Below are positions 2,201-9,025 of a stretch of DNA of 41,458 bases, one piece after another. Source of the stretch: Pirellulales bacterium (GTDB taxonomy: Bacteria > Planctomycetota > Planctomycetia > Pirellulales > JADZDJ01); the NCBI GenBank assembly GCA_020851115.1, contig JADZDJ010000240.1, forward strand, positions 1 through 41,458, given 5' to 3'. The position numbers and the translations under genes were made by a program. How positions within the stretch are numbered: position 1 is the first letter of the stretch; every line of letters begins with the position of its first letter. Below the pieces are notes generated by a model that worked only from the letters and a program-made list of their open reading frames with translations, was not told the DNA's origin and did no database searches.

Positions 2201-2668
2201 ATGTCTGCTGTAATGATGGAACGATTCTCGGCAGCCTCTGCGCCGGCGATGCCTTCCTGGCAACCGACCGGCCTGCCAGCGGCAGCCCCTGTGGCCGGCA
2301 ACATGTGCGTGGTGCCGCGCTGCAAGATCAAGTTTGAAAAATGCACCGGCGGATTCAAACTGCACTGCAAATGCGACGACGAGATGTCGTGCGCGACGCT
2401 GCAGAATCTTTGCAAGATGCTCTGCGATGGGCTGTGCAGTTGTATTTGCTCGTGCAATGGCTTGGAGTGCTGCAAATGCTCGTTTGCGAATTGCCATTGC
2501 AAATGCGAGTACACGAAAGACGGCTGCTGCATCACTTGCACCAGCGGCGATAAGCAATGCTGCGAAATGCTGCAAGCGTGCTGCGATTGCTGCGCCAAGT
2601 GCTGCGAAAACGGCTGCTGCTGCTATGTCTGCTTCAACAACACGCCGGTTTGCTGTGGAACCTGCTAA
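2201..2668 (+). CDS. Extremely cysteine-rich small protein, metal-binding candidate
   Basis: The gene encodes 155 residues with 36 cysteines, all after residue 35. They come in CxC, CC and CCC clusters (for example CSCICSCNGLECCKC and CCDCCAKCCENGCCC). The first 34 residues are Met/Ala/Pro-rich and lack Cys. I chose the ATG at 2201 because AAGGAG lies about 8 bases upstream; the frame is open further 5' but that part has no Cys and a different composition. There is no signal peptide, so a cytoplasmic metallothionein-like metal store or a structural coat protein are both possible. It is far longer than classical bacterial metallothioneins (about 55 residues). A strong terminator follows, so it appears to be a single-gene unit. 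The repeated TGC codons leave long open frames on the other strand, which I treat as artefacts. Confidence 0.8.
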   Translation: MSAVMMERFSAASAPAMPSWQPTGLPAAAPVAGNMCVVPRCKIKFEKCTGGFKLHCKCDDEMSCATLQNLCKMLCDGLCSCICSCNGLECCKCSFANCHCKCEYTKDGCCITCTSGDKQCCEMLQACCDCCAKCCENGCCCYVCFNNTPVCCGTC

Positions 2669-2747: not shown

Positions 2748-2779
2748 AAGCCCGGGAGACGCGAGTCCTCCGGGCTTTT
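2748..2779 (+). terminator. Intrinsic terminator after the Cys-rich gene
   Basis: AAGCCCGG pairs with CCGGGCTT, extended by GAG/CTC around a one-base bulge, and the right arm runs into TTTT. It lies 80 bases after the stop of the cysteine-rich gene and before the peptide transporter, so the two are probably separate transcripts. Confidence 0.8.
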
Positions 2780-2911: not shown

Positions 2912-4294
2912 TTGACAAGCGATTCCGGTCCTTCTCCACCGCCGGCGTCTACCGAGGCGCAGGCTCCCGGCGTGCATCATCCCGTCGGATTCTGGTTCTT
3001 CTTTTGGGGTGAGTTCGCCGAGCGCTGCTCGTATTACGGCATGAAAACGCTGCTGCCTTTGTATCTGACCAATGAAATGAACATTTCGGACGGCCTGGCG
3101 GGTGCCGTGCAGTCATGGTTCAAGATGGCGGTCTACTTCTTGCCGCTTGTTGGCGGCTATATTGCCGATAAATTTTTCGGCAAATACTGGACGATCATTG
3201 GCTTCTCGATCCCCTACGTGCTGGGGCATTTTATCTTGGGAATTCCGCAGGAGTGGGCGGTTTTTACGGCGTTGGCATTGTTGGCTGGCGGTAGCGGCGT
3301 AATCAAACCGAACGTCTCGACGCTGATGGGGCTGACCTATGATCAACAGCGCGCGGGCCAAGATCAGCTTCGCGCGGCGGCGTTTATGTGGTTTTATTTC
3401 GCGGTCAACATTGGTTCGTTTATTTCCACCTCGGCGTTGCCTTTTGCGCGCGATAAGTGGGGTTACGCGGCGGCCTTTCAAGTTCCCGCCTGGCTGATGG
3501 TCGCAGCGCTGGCAGTCTTCGCGGCCGGAAAACCTTTTTACGCCGTCGAAAAAATCGAACACCGGCTGGCGACACCGACGGAGCGGAGCGAACAACGGGC
3601 AACGCTCAAGTCGCTCTTTGCGATCTTTCTGTTTATCGTATTTTTCTGGATCGCCTACGAACAAAACGATTCGCTGTGGATTTACTTTCTCCGCGACCAT
3701 GTCACCCTGCCGCAACTATGGTTCATGGACAAACCGCTGAAATCCGACGCGTTGCAGGCGATTAATCCGTTCTTGGTCGTGGTGTTCGTTCCCTTGTTCA
3801 ATTTCGCCTTCGCGCGACTCGATCCGCAAGCAAAATTCATCACGCGGACCAGAAAGATGTTCGCCGGGCTGTTGTTTACCGGTGCGGCGTCCGCTTTGAT
3901 GGCAGCGGCTGGTTACTTGTCGGAAATCTCAGGAGGCAACGTTTCAATCGGGTGGTATGTCGCCGCCTTCTCGGTATTGACCATCGGCGAAGTCTTGGTC
4001 TATGGCACGGGCCTGGAATTGGTATACACCTTTGCCCCGCCGCGGATGAAAAGCTTCGTCACTGCGTGTTTTTTGCTCACGGTGGCGATCGCAAATTTTG
4101 TCAACTCGGGGCTGTTCCAATTTTACGGCGGACGCAAGGCCGAAAATACGGAAGAGTGGCGCCTGCCGACGGTGTCGCCGGGAACCTTTTTCGCCCTGAC
4201 GGCGGCAATGATGGCCGCAGCCGCTGTCGGCTTCTACTTCGTCGGCCGCCGATTTGAGCGCGGAATCGTGGCAAAGTCGAATGCGGGCAAGTAG
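2912..4294 (+). CDS. POT/PTR-family proton-coupled peptide transporter
   Basis: This is an inner-membrane MFS protein that would import di- and tripeptides with protons. The first helix carries the family signature ExxER (GEFAERCSYYGMKTLLPLYL). The next conserved block (FKMAVYFLPLVGGYIADKFF) and GGSGVIKPNVSTLMG are also typical of the family. About 12 or more hydrophobic helices are visible over 460 residues. The frame is open back to 2687, but that extension crosses a terminator and is not membrane-like. The TTG at 2912 is preceded by AAGGG at a spacing of 8 and gives a short N-terminus (MTSDSGPSPPPAS), so I chose it. The aromatic residue that usually follows ExxER is Cys here. The substrate is inferred from the family only. 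Confidence 0.88.
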   Translation: MTSDSGPSPPPASTEAQAPGVHHPVGFWFFFWGEFAERCSYYGMKTLLPLYLTNEMNISDGLAGAVQSWFKMAVYFLPLVGGYIADKFFGKYWTIIGFSIPYVLGHFILGIPQEWAVFTALALLAGGSGVIKPNVSTLMGLTYDQQRAGQDQLRAAAFMWFYFAVNIGSFISTSALPFARDKWGYAAAFQVPAWLMVAALAVFAAGKPFYAVEKIEHRLATPTERSEQRATLKSLFAIFLFIVFFWIAYEQNDSLWIYFLRDHVTLPQLWFMDKPLKSDALQAINPFLVVVFVPLFNFAFARLDPQAKFITRTRKMFAGLLFTGAASALMAAAGYLSEISGGNVSIGWYVAAFSVLTIGEVLVYGTGLELVYTFAPPRMKSFVTACFLLTVAIANFVNSGLFQFYGGRKAENTEEWRLPTVSPGTFFALTAAMMAAAAVGFYFVGRRFERGIVAKSNAGK

Positions 4295-4369: not shown

Positions 4370-5332
4370 ATGCTGCTGTTTTCCTACCGTATCACATGGA
4401 TTGTCGTACTGCTCATCGCGACGGGTTGCGAAGGCGCACCGCCCACCACGGCTGCCAAAGCAGCGCCTCCCGCTCGCATGGCGCCCAAAATTGCTTTTGA
4501 TGGAGCTGCCTCGTTTGAATATCTCAAGCAGATATGTGCGATCGGGCCACGATACAGCGGGTCGAAGGGAATGCGCGAGCAACAAGCGTTGCTCGTAGAG
4601 CATTTTCAAAAGCTAGGGGCGAACGTCACGAAGCAGGAATTTCAAGCGCGGCATCCACAATCAGGCGGGGCCGTACAAATGGCCAACCTGATCATCCAGT
4701 GGCATCCGGAGCGAAAAGAGCGAGTGTTGCTTGTCGCTCATTACGACACCCGCCCCTTGCCCGACCGCGATCCGCGAAATCCCCGCGGCAACTTTATCGG
4801 CGCCAATGACGGCGGTAGCGGCGTGGCGGTGCTGATGGAATTGGGTAAGGCCATGCCGAAATTCGACAGCCCACTTGGCGTCGATTTCTTGTTGGTTGAC
4901 GGCGAAGAATTGGTGTTCCGCGAAGGCGACCCATATTGCCTCGGTTCTGCGCATTTTGCTAGGCAGTATTTCGCAGATCCACCGGAGCATCAATATCGCT
5001 GGGGCGTGGTGCTCGATATGGTGGGTGGAAGAAACGCGAGGTTTTTTCAGGAATCCAACAGCGCCGGCTGGCGCGACACGCTGCCGCTGGTGGAACAAAT
5101 CTGGGCAACGGCGGCTCGCCTCGGGGTGCGCGAATTCGTAGCGCAGATCGGAGAACAAGTCACCGACGACCACATTCCACTCCACGACATCGCACATATC
5201 CCAACGTGCGACATCATCGGTTGGCCCTATCAAGCGTGGCATACTCAAGCCGACACGCCGGCACAATGCTCCGCGGCGACGCTTGGCAAAGTAGGCTGGG
5301 TAATTTTCGAATGGCTGAAGGAGCAGAAGTAG
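4370..5332 (+). CDS. Lipoprotein glutaminyl-peptide cyclotransferase-like M28 enzyme
   Basis: A 320-residue zinc enzyme of the M28 fold with a lipoprotein signal (lipobox LIATGC, Cys20), so it should sit at a membrane facing the periplasm. Candidate zinc ligands are Asp147 (GANDGGSG), Glu180 (VDGEE) and His291 (AWHTQAD). Glu179, Asp216 and His268 match catalytic positions of glutaminyl cyclase. The insertion between DGEE and LGSAHF, and the WHT motif, fit glutaminyl cyclase better than M28 aminopeptidases; that is why I prefer conversion of N-terminal Gln to pyroglutamate over peptide cleavage. A TAGAAT box at 4358-4363 lies only 7 bases before the ATG, so a leaderless mRNA is possible. The peptide transporter lies just upstream. 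Confidence 0.8.
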   Translation: MLLFSYRITWIVVLLIATGCEGAPPTTAAKAAPPARMAPKIAFDGAASFEYLKQICAIGPRYSGSKGMREQQALLVEHFQKLGANVTKQEFQARHPQSGGAVQMANLIIQWHPERKERVLLVAHYDTRPLPDRDPRNPRGNFIGANDGGSGVAVLMELGKAMPKFDSPLGVDFLLVDGEELVFREGDPYCLGSAHFARQYFADPPEHQYRWGVVLDMVGGRNARFFQESNSAGWRDTLPLVEQIWATAARLGVREFVAQIGEQVTDDHIPLHDIAHIPTCDIIGWPYQAWHTQADTPAQCSAATLGKVGWVIFEWLKEQK

Positions 5333-7865: not shown

Positions 7866-7963
7866 TACCATGCAATCCGGAGCCGTCGGAGAGAGTGAGG
7901 CCGGATCACTGTTTCCTCCGTATTCAAATTGAGGTCGTCAGACTTTTCCATAAGGCACCTTCG

Positions 7964-9025
7964 ATGGCCAGCAGCACCAAATCACTCCAGACACTGCATT
8001 GGTGCGGCGATGTTGACGGCCAACTCGTGCTGATTGACCAAACGAGGCTGCCAACCGAATTCGTTGAAATCGAATGCCGCGACGCGCAATCAGTTTGGGA
8101 GGCGATTCGCAACTTGCGAGTTCGCGGCGCACCGGCAATTGGCATTGCAGCGGCATACGGGGTGTGCTTGGGAATACAAGCCGTCGCCCAGGTTGACGAA
8201 GCGGCATGGTTCGATCGACTGGACGAAGCGACCAAGTACTTGGCTTCCAGCCGTCCGACGGCGGTCAATCTCTTTTGGTCGATTGAGCGAATGAAGCGAT
8301 GCGCCGAAGGGCATCGCGGAAAAACACCTCCCCGAGAAATTGCCGCCGCATTGCTGAAAGAAGCACACGCGATTTACGAAGAAGACCAGCACATGAGCCG
8401 TTCGATTGGAAGGTTTGGATCGGCGCTGCTCCAGGATGGTCAAGGCGTGCTGACGCATTGCAATGCCGGGGGCCTGGCCACGGCCGATTATGGCACGGCG
8501 CTGGCCGTGATTTTTGCTGCGCACGACGCCGATAAACGCATTCACGTCTATGCTGATGAAACGCGGCCCCTGCTTCAAGGCGCTCGACTCACCGCGTGGG
8601 AGCTTCAGCGGCGCGGCATCGACGTAACTCTTATTTGCGATTCGATGGCCGCTCAAGTGATGCGCGAGGGCCGCGTGCAAACGGCGATCGTCGGCGCCGA
8701 TCGGATTGCGGCCAACGGCGATACGGCCAACAAAATCGGTACCTACGGTGTTGCGCTACTGGCTGCGGCTCACAACATTCCGTTATACGTGGCGGCTCCA
8801 AGCAGCACGTTCGACTTGTCGATTGCCAGCGGCGAGCAAATTCCGATTGAACTGCGCCCTGCCGAAGAAATCACGCACGGCTTCGGTCGACAAACCGCCC
8901 CGACTGGCGTTCGTGCGTACAATCCGGCATTCGATGTCACCCCGGCAAGATTGATTCGAGCAATTATCACCGAGCGCGGCATCATCGAGCCCGTGAACGC
9001 TCAAACGATCGCCGACGTGCTGTGA
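7964..9025 (+). CDS. mtnA: S-methyl-5-thioribose-1-phosphate isomerase
   Basis: Isomerises 5-methylthioribose 1-phosphate to the ribulose form in the methionine salvage pathway. Family blocks are all present: RVRGAPAIGIAAAYG (about 52-66), NLFWSIERM, LTHCNAGGLATADYGTAL with the catalytic Cys166, and IVGADRIAANGDTANKIGTY with the catalytic Asp246. I start at ATG 7964 (AAGG 8 bases upstream), giving 353 residues, the usual length; the frame is open to 7895 without family similarity. The stop overlaps the start of pxpA by four bases (GTGA), implying translational coupling. No other methionine salvage gene (mtnK, mtnB, mtnD) is in the window. Confidence 0.95.
   Translation: MASSTKSLQTLHWCGDVDGQLVLIDQTRLPTEFVEIECRDAQSVWEAIRNLRVRGAPAIGIAAAYGVCLGIQAVAQVDEAAWFDRLDEATKYLASSRPTAVNLFWSIERMKRCAEGHRGKTPPREIAAALLKEAHAIYEEDQHMSRSIGRFGSALLQDGQGVLTHCNAGGLATADYGTALAVIFAAHDADKRIHVYADETRPLLQGARLTAWELQRRGIDVTLICDSMAAQVMREGRVQTAIVGADRIAANGDTANKIGTYGVALLAAAHNIPLYVAAPSSTFDLSIASGEQIPIELRPAEEITHGFGRQTAPTGVRAYNPAFDVTPARLIRAIITERGIIEPVNAQTIADVL

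Follow-up and report, generated by a model that had tools for sequence, protein, structure and literature searches.

Why would a bacterium make a protein of 155 residues of which 36 are cysteines? The question is raised by a gene on the forward strand (2201-2668) of the window, by which we mean the whole stretch of 41,458 nucleotides of Pirellulales DNA analysed here. A sequence-only reading of the gene had offered a metal store, a redox buffer or a disulfide-linked structural protein. A metal or a redox role keeps some likelihood, as discussed below. The lead missing from that list is sulfur itself: the gene context and a common leader point to sulfur uptake and to cysteine and methionine metabolism, and relatives of the protein use Met in place of hydrophobic residues and of Cys. 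We put the probability at roughly one half that the protein belongs to a regulon for sulfur homeostasis in planctomycetes, most likely as a cytosolic reserve or buffer of cysteine and methionine. We infer this function from a conserved protein family with internal repeats, the linkage of its genes to sulfur genes, the leader element and the exchange of hydrophobic residues for methionine.

All cysteines of the window protein lie in its last 120 residues, the first at residue 36 and the last at residue 155, in nine overlapping CC, one CCC, nine CxC and seven CxxC motifs; they are encoded by 34 TGC and two TGT codons. At the Cys rate of the eight neighbouring ORFs of the window (35 in 2681 residues), the binomial probability of at least 36 Cys in 155 residues is ∼7e-34. 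The N-terminal tail (residues 1-35, 2201-2305, forward strand) is of low complexity, has a conserved MSSA..ER-like start in the alignment and looks disordered (pLDDT <50), and no export signal is visible by eye in the protein. The gene has a good Shine-Dalgarno sequence on the same strand, AAAGGAG at 2188-2194, similar to that of most relatives. Around 80 nt past the stop codon, a scan found a terminator-like hairpin of its own, a GC-rich stem of the intrinsic type followed by a U-run (2748-2779, forward strand; fold -20.4 kcal/mol, z -2.72). A consensus scan also found a promoter-like site on the forward strand, TTGTCG-18-TATATT at 1975-2004, which matches at 9 of 12 positions (chance would give 0.6 in this region); leaders of other family members have ACTTGC...TATATT with similar spacing. 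As to the cysteines, the Shine-Dalgarno sequence, the terminator and the lack of a visible export signal, the sequence-only reading was borne out.

It had also called for a homology search and held that the protein exceeds known bacterial metallothioneins. The protein is indeed no recognisable metallothionein, and the search returned a conserved family without a match to any characterised one: no Pfam, NCBIfam or PHROGs family was found for the window protein at E<=10, and PDB sequences gave chance-level matches only, both with the single protein and with a 20-row profile. With the window protein as query, 16 places were found in 13 of 57 related genomes, and across the phylum 5 of 392 genomes, its own included, had a match. 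Within the order, the 20-row profile picked up 28 places, spread over 25 of 296 genomes, and its phylum-wide count was likewise 5 of 392. Single-protein and profile searches combined give 30 near-complete members in 27 Planctomycetota genomes, two fragments (G590, G469) being excluded from all family counts. The one named record with a member is JACPPG010000035.1, from a groundwater Planctomycetia MAG. Plasmids had no match to the window protein, and viral contigs none to the family. As dN/dS is 0.06-0.24 in six member pairs, the protein itself is under selection, and the window ORF is a conserved protein, beyond chance. The family and its leader look undescribed in the literature searched, most subscription papers lying outside it.

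That the cysteine-rich domain is built of two repeats of ∼50 residues came from aligning the profiles of its halves (hhalign probability 96%, E 3.8e-9), where 20 column-shuffled profiles reach at most 2.8%. In the window protein the repeats span residues 41-94 (2321-2482) and 99-155 (2495-2665), both on the forward strand. AlphaFold, run on two sequences, predicts a strand-strand-helix-strand-strand unit twice, the final strand of repeat 2 being less certain. This fold is only a suggestion because mean pLDDT is just 51 and 49. A Foldseek search with the low-confidence model returned no PDB fold at E<=0.001, and we therefore claim no fold.

A high content of sulfur residues is kept throughout the family, as the composition of a storage protein would have it. 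In the 20 aligned members, Cys and Met together account for 19.5-45.4% of the residues, with Cys counts of 18-38 and Met counts of 2-72. Six Met-rich members (L011-L016) reach ∼40% sulfur residues, keeping Cys at 26%; Met takes up 13 of their 27 hydrophobic columns, but only 5 of the 35 Cys columns. L019 and L020, the members furthest from the rest, are mostly Met and have it at 17 of the 35 Cys columns. Sulfur residues thus replace hydrophobic ones, and Cys and Met interchange. Seven Cys columns are invariant in the 20 members, and Cys is conserved in at least 18 of 20 at 19 columns.

The neighbourhood of the genes gives the composition its context. Flanking genes were clustered and then identified with NCBIfam. 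For 20 of the 30 members, genes for a sulfate ABC transporter, for transsulfuration enzymes of the cystathionine beta-synthase/gamma-lyase type (CBS/CGL) or cysK are no more than 7 kb away; at random, 0.22 of 30 would be so placed. Such counts treat members of the same family as independent, which they are not; collapsed by family, the linkage is seen in 7 of 12, in at least five different arrangements. Sulfate ABC genes are within 7 kb in 12 genomes (G001, G036, G044, G607, G507, G526, G530, G550, G582, G618, G645, G672), CBS and CGL-type genes in six (G003, G020, G036, G044, G051, G054), and cysK in G373, where an Rrf2 regulator stands between, and G423. G036 and G044 each have one member by sulfate ABC genes and another by CBS and CGL-type genes. 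In the family f8, the Cys-rich gene is followed on the same strand by a sulfate-binding protein gene in all eight genomes, with CysT-CysW-CysA next in four, all those in which the contig was read far enough. CBS-CGL genes adjoin every one of the six Met-rich members but none of the 24 others; this association spans three families, and a simple Fisher figure overstates their independence. Sulfate-binding protein, CysT, CysW and CysK score above their NCBIfam cut-offs. CBS scores below its own, and the CGL-type enzyme is above cut-off solely for the cystathionine gamma-synthase model at L034 and for none of the models listed at L031, so that the exact reactions of both enzymes are not fixed. A Pfam tally of the neighbours (113 proteins at 18 hand-chosen loci out of 23, with 227 ORFs) is illustrative only; known sulfur genes hidden by its longest-ORF rule were restored by hand, and the families displayed are 25 of 125.

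The window gene is among those not linked to sulfur genes, together with the members in G002, G018, G021, G031, G034, G093, G137 and G605 and one of the two in G051. The G002 member is probably linked to a sulfate transporter as in G001, because its contig and that of the sulfate transporter both break near or in CysA. In the window, genes for a peptide transporter of the POT family and for an M28 peptidase (2912-4294 and 4370-5332) flank the Cys-rich gene, and no sulfur gene adjoins it; the sulfur role of this copy rests on homology and on its leader. An ORF at 7895-9025, 5 kb off, resembles MtnA, the methylthioribose-1-phosphate isomerase of methionine salvage, and its presence may be chance. 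We would also like to point out that a sigma-54 activator gene lies by a sulfate transporter or directly before a Cys-rich gene at three loci (L075:6288-7991, L022:17429-19099, L031:3287-4999) and is possibly a sulfur regulator. A sigma-54 promoter for the family, an idea taken from this adjoining regulator, scored like shuffled sequence and was dropped.

The main rival to a sulfur reserve is a store of soft metal, Cu(I), held by thiolates and thioethers as in Csp, the genes travelling with the sulfur supply for Cys and Met. Cu(I) is bound by Cys and by Met, the Met-rich members have MxM and MxxM tails, and seven cysteines are invariant. Cysteines alternate along the strands of the AlphaFold model, which would turn one face all thiol, and a folded core filled with Cys, with Met at its mouth, is described for Csp (PMC7558416). 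We nevertheless consider such a store unlikely. The family has no Pfam or NCBIfam match to Csp or metallothionein, its Met is spread over hydrophobic columns, and the number of potential ligands varies with the Cys and Met counts given above. Taking a metal-gene context as our own mark of a metallothionein, we found none of 88 P-type ATPase places within 20 kb of a member in 21 member genomes, the nearest, in G423, being ∼24 kb away. Moreover, the leader that the family has in common with other genes marks sulfur genes, not metal genes.

This leader is an element of 80 nt with the consensus GCYGACCCG-loop-CGGGAGG, then GCG-NNGCUGACUGG-loop-CCAGAGG-NNCGC, found roughly 70-190 nt ahead of the start codon in many members. 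Including that of the window, 16 of the 30 members have it. A model built without the window sequence (R3) matches the window on the forward strand at 2009-2093, scoring 32.3 bits in a search of 187 kb (E 8.1e-5); the first hairpin, GCCGAT-CCGC-AGA-GCGG-GAGG, is at 2017-2037 on that strand and corresponds to the first half of the consensus. A model built from 12 family leaders (R1) recovers four untrained ones (G003, G036:C30, G044:C8 and, at a contig end, G034), and outside the family its three top-scoring places in 25 genomes all adjoin sulfate ABC genes (G044, G036, G031). In the alignment of the second hairpin, 96.3% of cells are paired, against 36-47% when it is slid, and double changes occur in three pairs. 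The model of this hairpin alone (R2) gives no match to the window's second hairpin (3.8 bits). The leader was not recognised in members of f8 (for some genomes in the fetched stretches only), f16, f7, f56 and f78, nor in G018 and G373. A known sulfur riboswitch (SAM, SAH, sul1 and others) was considered and rejected: Rfam gave none near 20 members at gathering threshold, no match to the L008 leader at E<=5, and for the L012 leader just two weak matches, to unrelated families.

The second hairpin recurs beyond the family. R2 matches are found in 31 of 57 relatives at E<=0.05, and the 33 matches of at least 30 bits in the 57 genomes comprise 11 family leaders and 22 non-family sites. By plain count, 18 of the 22 have sulfur genes no more than 9 kb away: sulfate ABC (5), cysK (1), a family 2B encapsulin or the desulfurase-like gene next to it (4), sulfatase (4) and a cysK-containing cluster (4). 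The site in G002 is near sulfur genes by synteny, and three are not near any (two in G020:C86, one in G030:C12). The R2 training set took in 10 of the 22; among the 12 untrained sites, one of which is identical to a trained one, 9 are near sulfur genes and that in G002 is a tenth by synteny. In the window's own genome, the sulfate ABC contig (G000:C232) has a match of 25.5 bits. Copies of the 36-nt hairpin can be seen at L036:13908-13943, L148:4647-4681, L153:3245-3279, L157:4934-4968 and 5241-5276, and L080:3725-3751. In related genomes, those without a Cys-rich gene included, this hairpin stands at loci of cysK, of family 2B encapsulin, of sulfatase and of the sulfate transporter, and we regard it as a candidate RNA regulator in a sulfur regulon.

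Encapsulin genes of family 2B are present in 8 of the 57 relatives. The hairpin lies ∼190-235 bp upstream of the encapsulin in five genomes (in two at 22-28 bits only) and 1.05 kb upstream in G026, and was not found at the encapsulin loci of G042 and G052. One locus (L148:1442-4438) has tandem family 2B shell genes, 85% alike, followed by a desulfurase-like gene. The encapsulin gene of G014 carries the hairpin, as do those of G051 and G050, which have a class V aminotransferase (desulfurase-like) neighbour; these loci would agree with a role of the Cys-rich protein in redox or in carrying or buffering sulfane sulfur (persulfide), in partnership with three other products of the regulon, the cysteine desulfurase, the encapsulin and CysK. 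Such a role is, in our judgement, quite improbable, since Met cannot carry a persulfide, yet L019 and L020 are mostly Met, and just two of the 13 member genomes among the 57 relatives have an encapsulin gene.

At the non-family sites an ATG follows 17-38 nt past the hairpin. It starts a short ORF at 16 of the 22 sites and the long gene itself at five, and one site has no ATG. Eleven of these 16 carry two or more Cys among their final eight residues, as do 149 of 3065 background ORFs (4.9%; P 1e-11); among them are ...KERCCCW, which precedes cysK, and, from the sulfate locus of G001, MTLTCC. Endings in runs of Cys (CC, CPCC, CCCW) are seen in short ORFs at L036 (from 13963), L022 (below 12777), L157 and L103. 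No Cys uORF is conserved ahead of the family gene itself in 15 family leaders. Such endings, and the position of the f8 genes directly ahead of a sulfate-binding protein gene, could be taken to mean that the Cys-rich ORF is an oversized Cys-codon attenuator for neighbouring sulfur genes and its protein a by-product. This is very hard to reconcile with the low dN/dS across families, the conservation of non-Cys residues, the exchange of Cys for Met in relatives and the terminator of the window gene, and we give it little credence.

How a reserve of cysteine and methionine could work may be pictured as follows. Sulfur would enter through the sulfate transporter and the cysteine and transsulfuration enzymes, be laid down as Cys residues, and in some paralogs as Met too, of a compact two-repeat protein, and be given back by proteolysis when sulfur runs short. 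As a quarter of the codons are for Cys, translation would be gated by the supply of Cys (Cys-tRNA), and the protein would thus be an overflow ("luxury uptake") store. We give slightly less than even odds to the wider reading that a Cys version stands by sulfate uptake and a Cys/Met version by transsulfuration, within an undescribed sulfur regulon with a new leader hairpin, Cys-codon leader peptides elsewhere and a family 2B encapsulin. Several findings speak against these proposals. The seven invariant and 19 well-kept Cys columns are more than bulk storage needs, the window gene and nine other members are not beside sulfur genes, and the f8 members lack a recognisable leader. Sulfate starvation raises CysA/T/W, SbpA and the SrpI encapsulin in Synechococcus (PMC8049743). 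If the planctomycete regulon were starvation-induced by analogy, making a Cys-rich protein at that time would be paradoxical, and the protein would be most useful on resupply.

If the reserve is real, it would be a dedicated bacterial sulfur store, and one could study the choice of sulfur amino acid for banking and its reason; the leader element would open a Planctomycetota sulfur regulon, encapsulin included, to direct test. Bacteria have dedicated stores for carbon, nitrogen, phosphate and iron. To our knowledge, no bacterial protein has been described whose own Cys and Met residues serve as a sulfur store, and the literature searched, which lies mostly outside subscription papers, gave nothing like it for a sulfur-storing bacterial protein, for Cys-rich planctomycete proteins or for such a leader. 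Even as a holder of metal, the family would be an unclassified Cys/Met-rich one.

Known systems resemble the family in parts. The polycysteine uORF attenuators of mycobacteria, reportedly Cys-responsive (Canestrari 2020), are alike in the short ORFs with terminal Cys after the hairpin at other sulfur loci, whereas the family gene lacks such a uORF and is itself a conserved 155-residue protein. The 2S albumins and delta-zeins are sulfur-rich seed storage proteins of plants, and offer an analogy of working in their high Cys and Met content as a sulfur reserve; no Pfam match suggests homology to either. Bacterial metallothioneins (SmtA, BmtA, MymT) are also Cys-rich and apparently cytosolic, with CC and CxC clusters, and are small (MymT is 4.9 kDa; PMC7558416), but the window protein, at 155 residues and 36 Cys, is not small in that sense: it is much longer, has a predicted two-repeat domain and no profile match to them, and its relatives stand in a context of sulfur rather than metal genes. 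Csp1 and Csp3 likewise have many Cys, with Met used too, inside a pre-formed fold, as is predicted for the family. Csp is, however, a four-helix bundle (PMC7558416), whereas the family is predicted, at low confidence, to have strand-strand-helix-strand-strand repeats and has no match to a Csp profile. A further one is SrpI, a family 2 encapsulin with a cysteine desulfurase; in the relatives, genes of this kind have the leader hairpin in common with the Cys-rich family. SrpI is proposed to be a sulfur store and is induced by sulfate starvation (PMC8049743). The encapsulin is an unrelated shell protein, whereas the Cys-rich family would store sulfur in its own residues.
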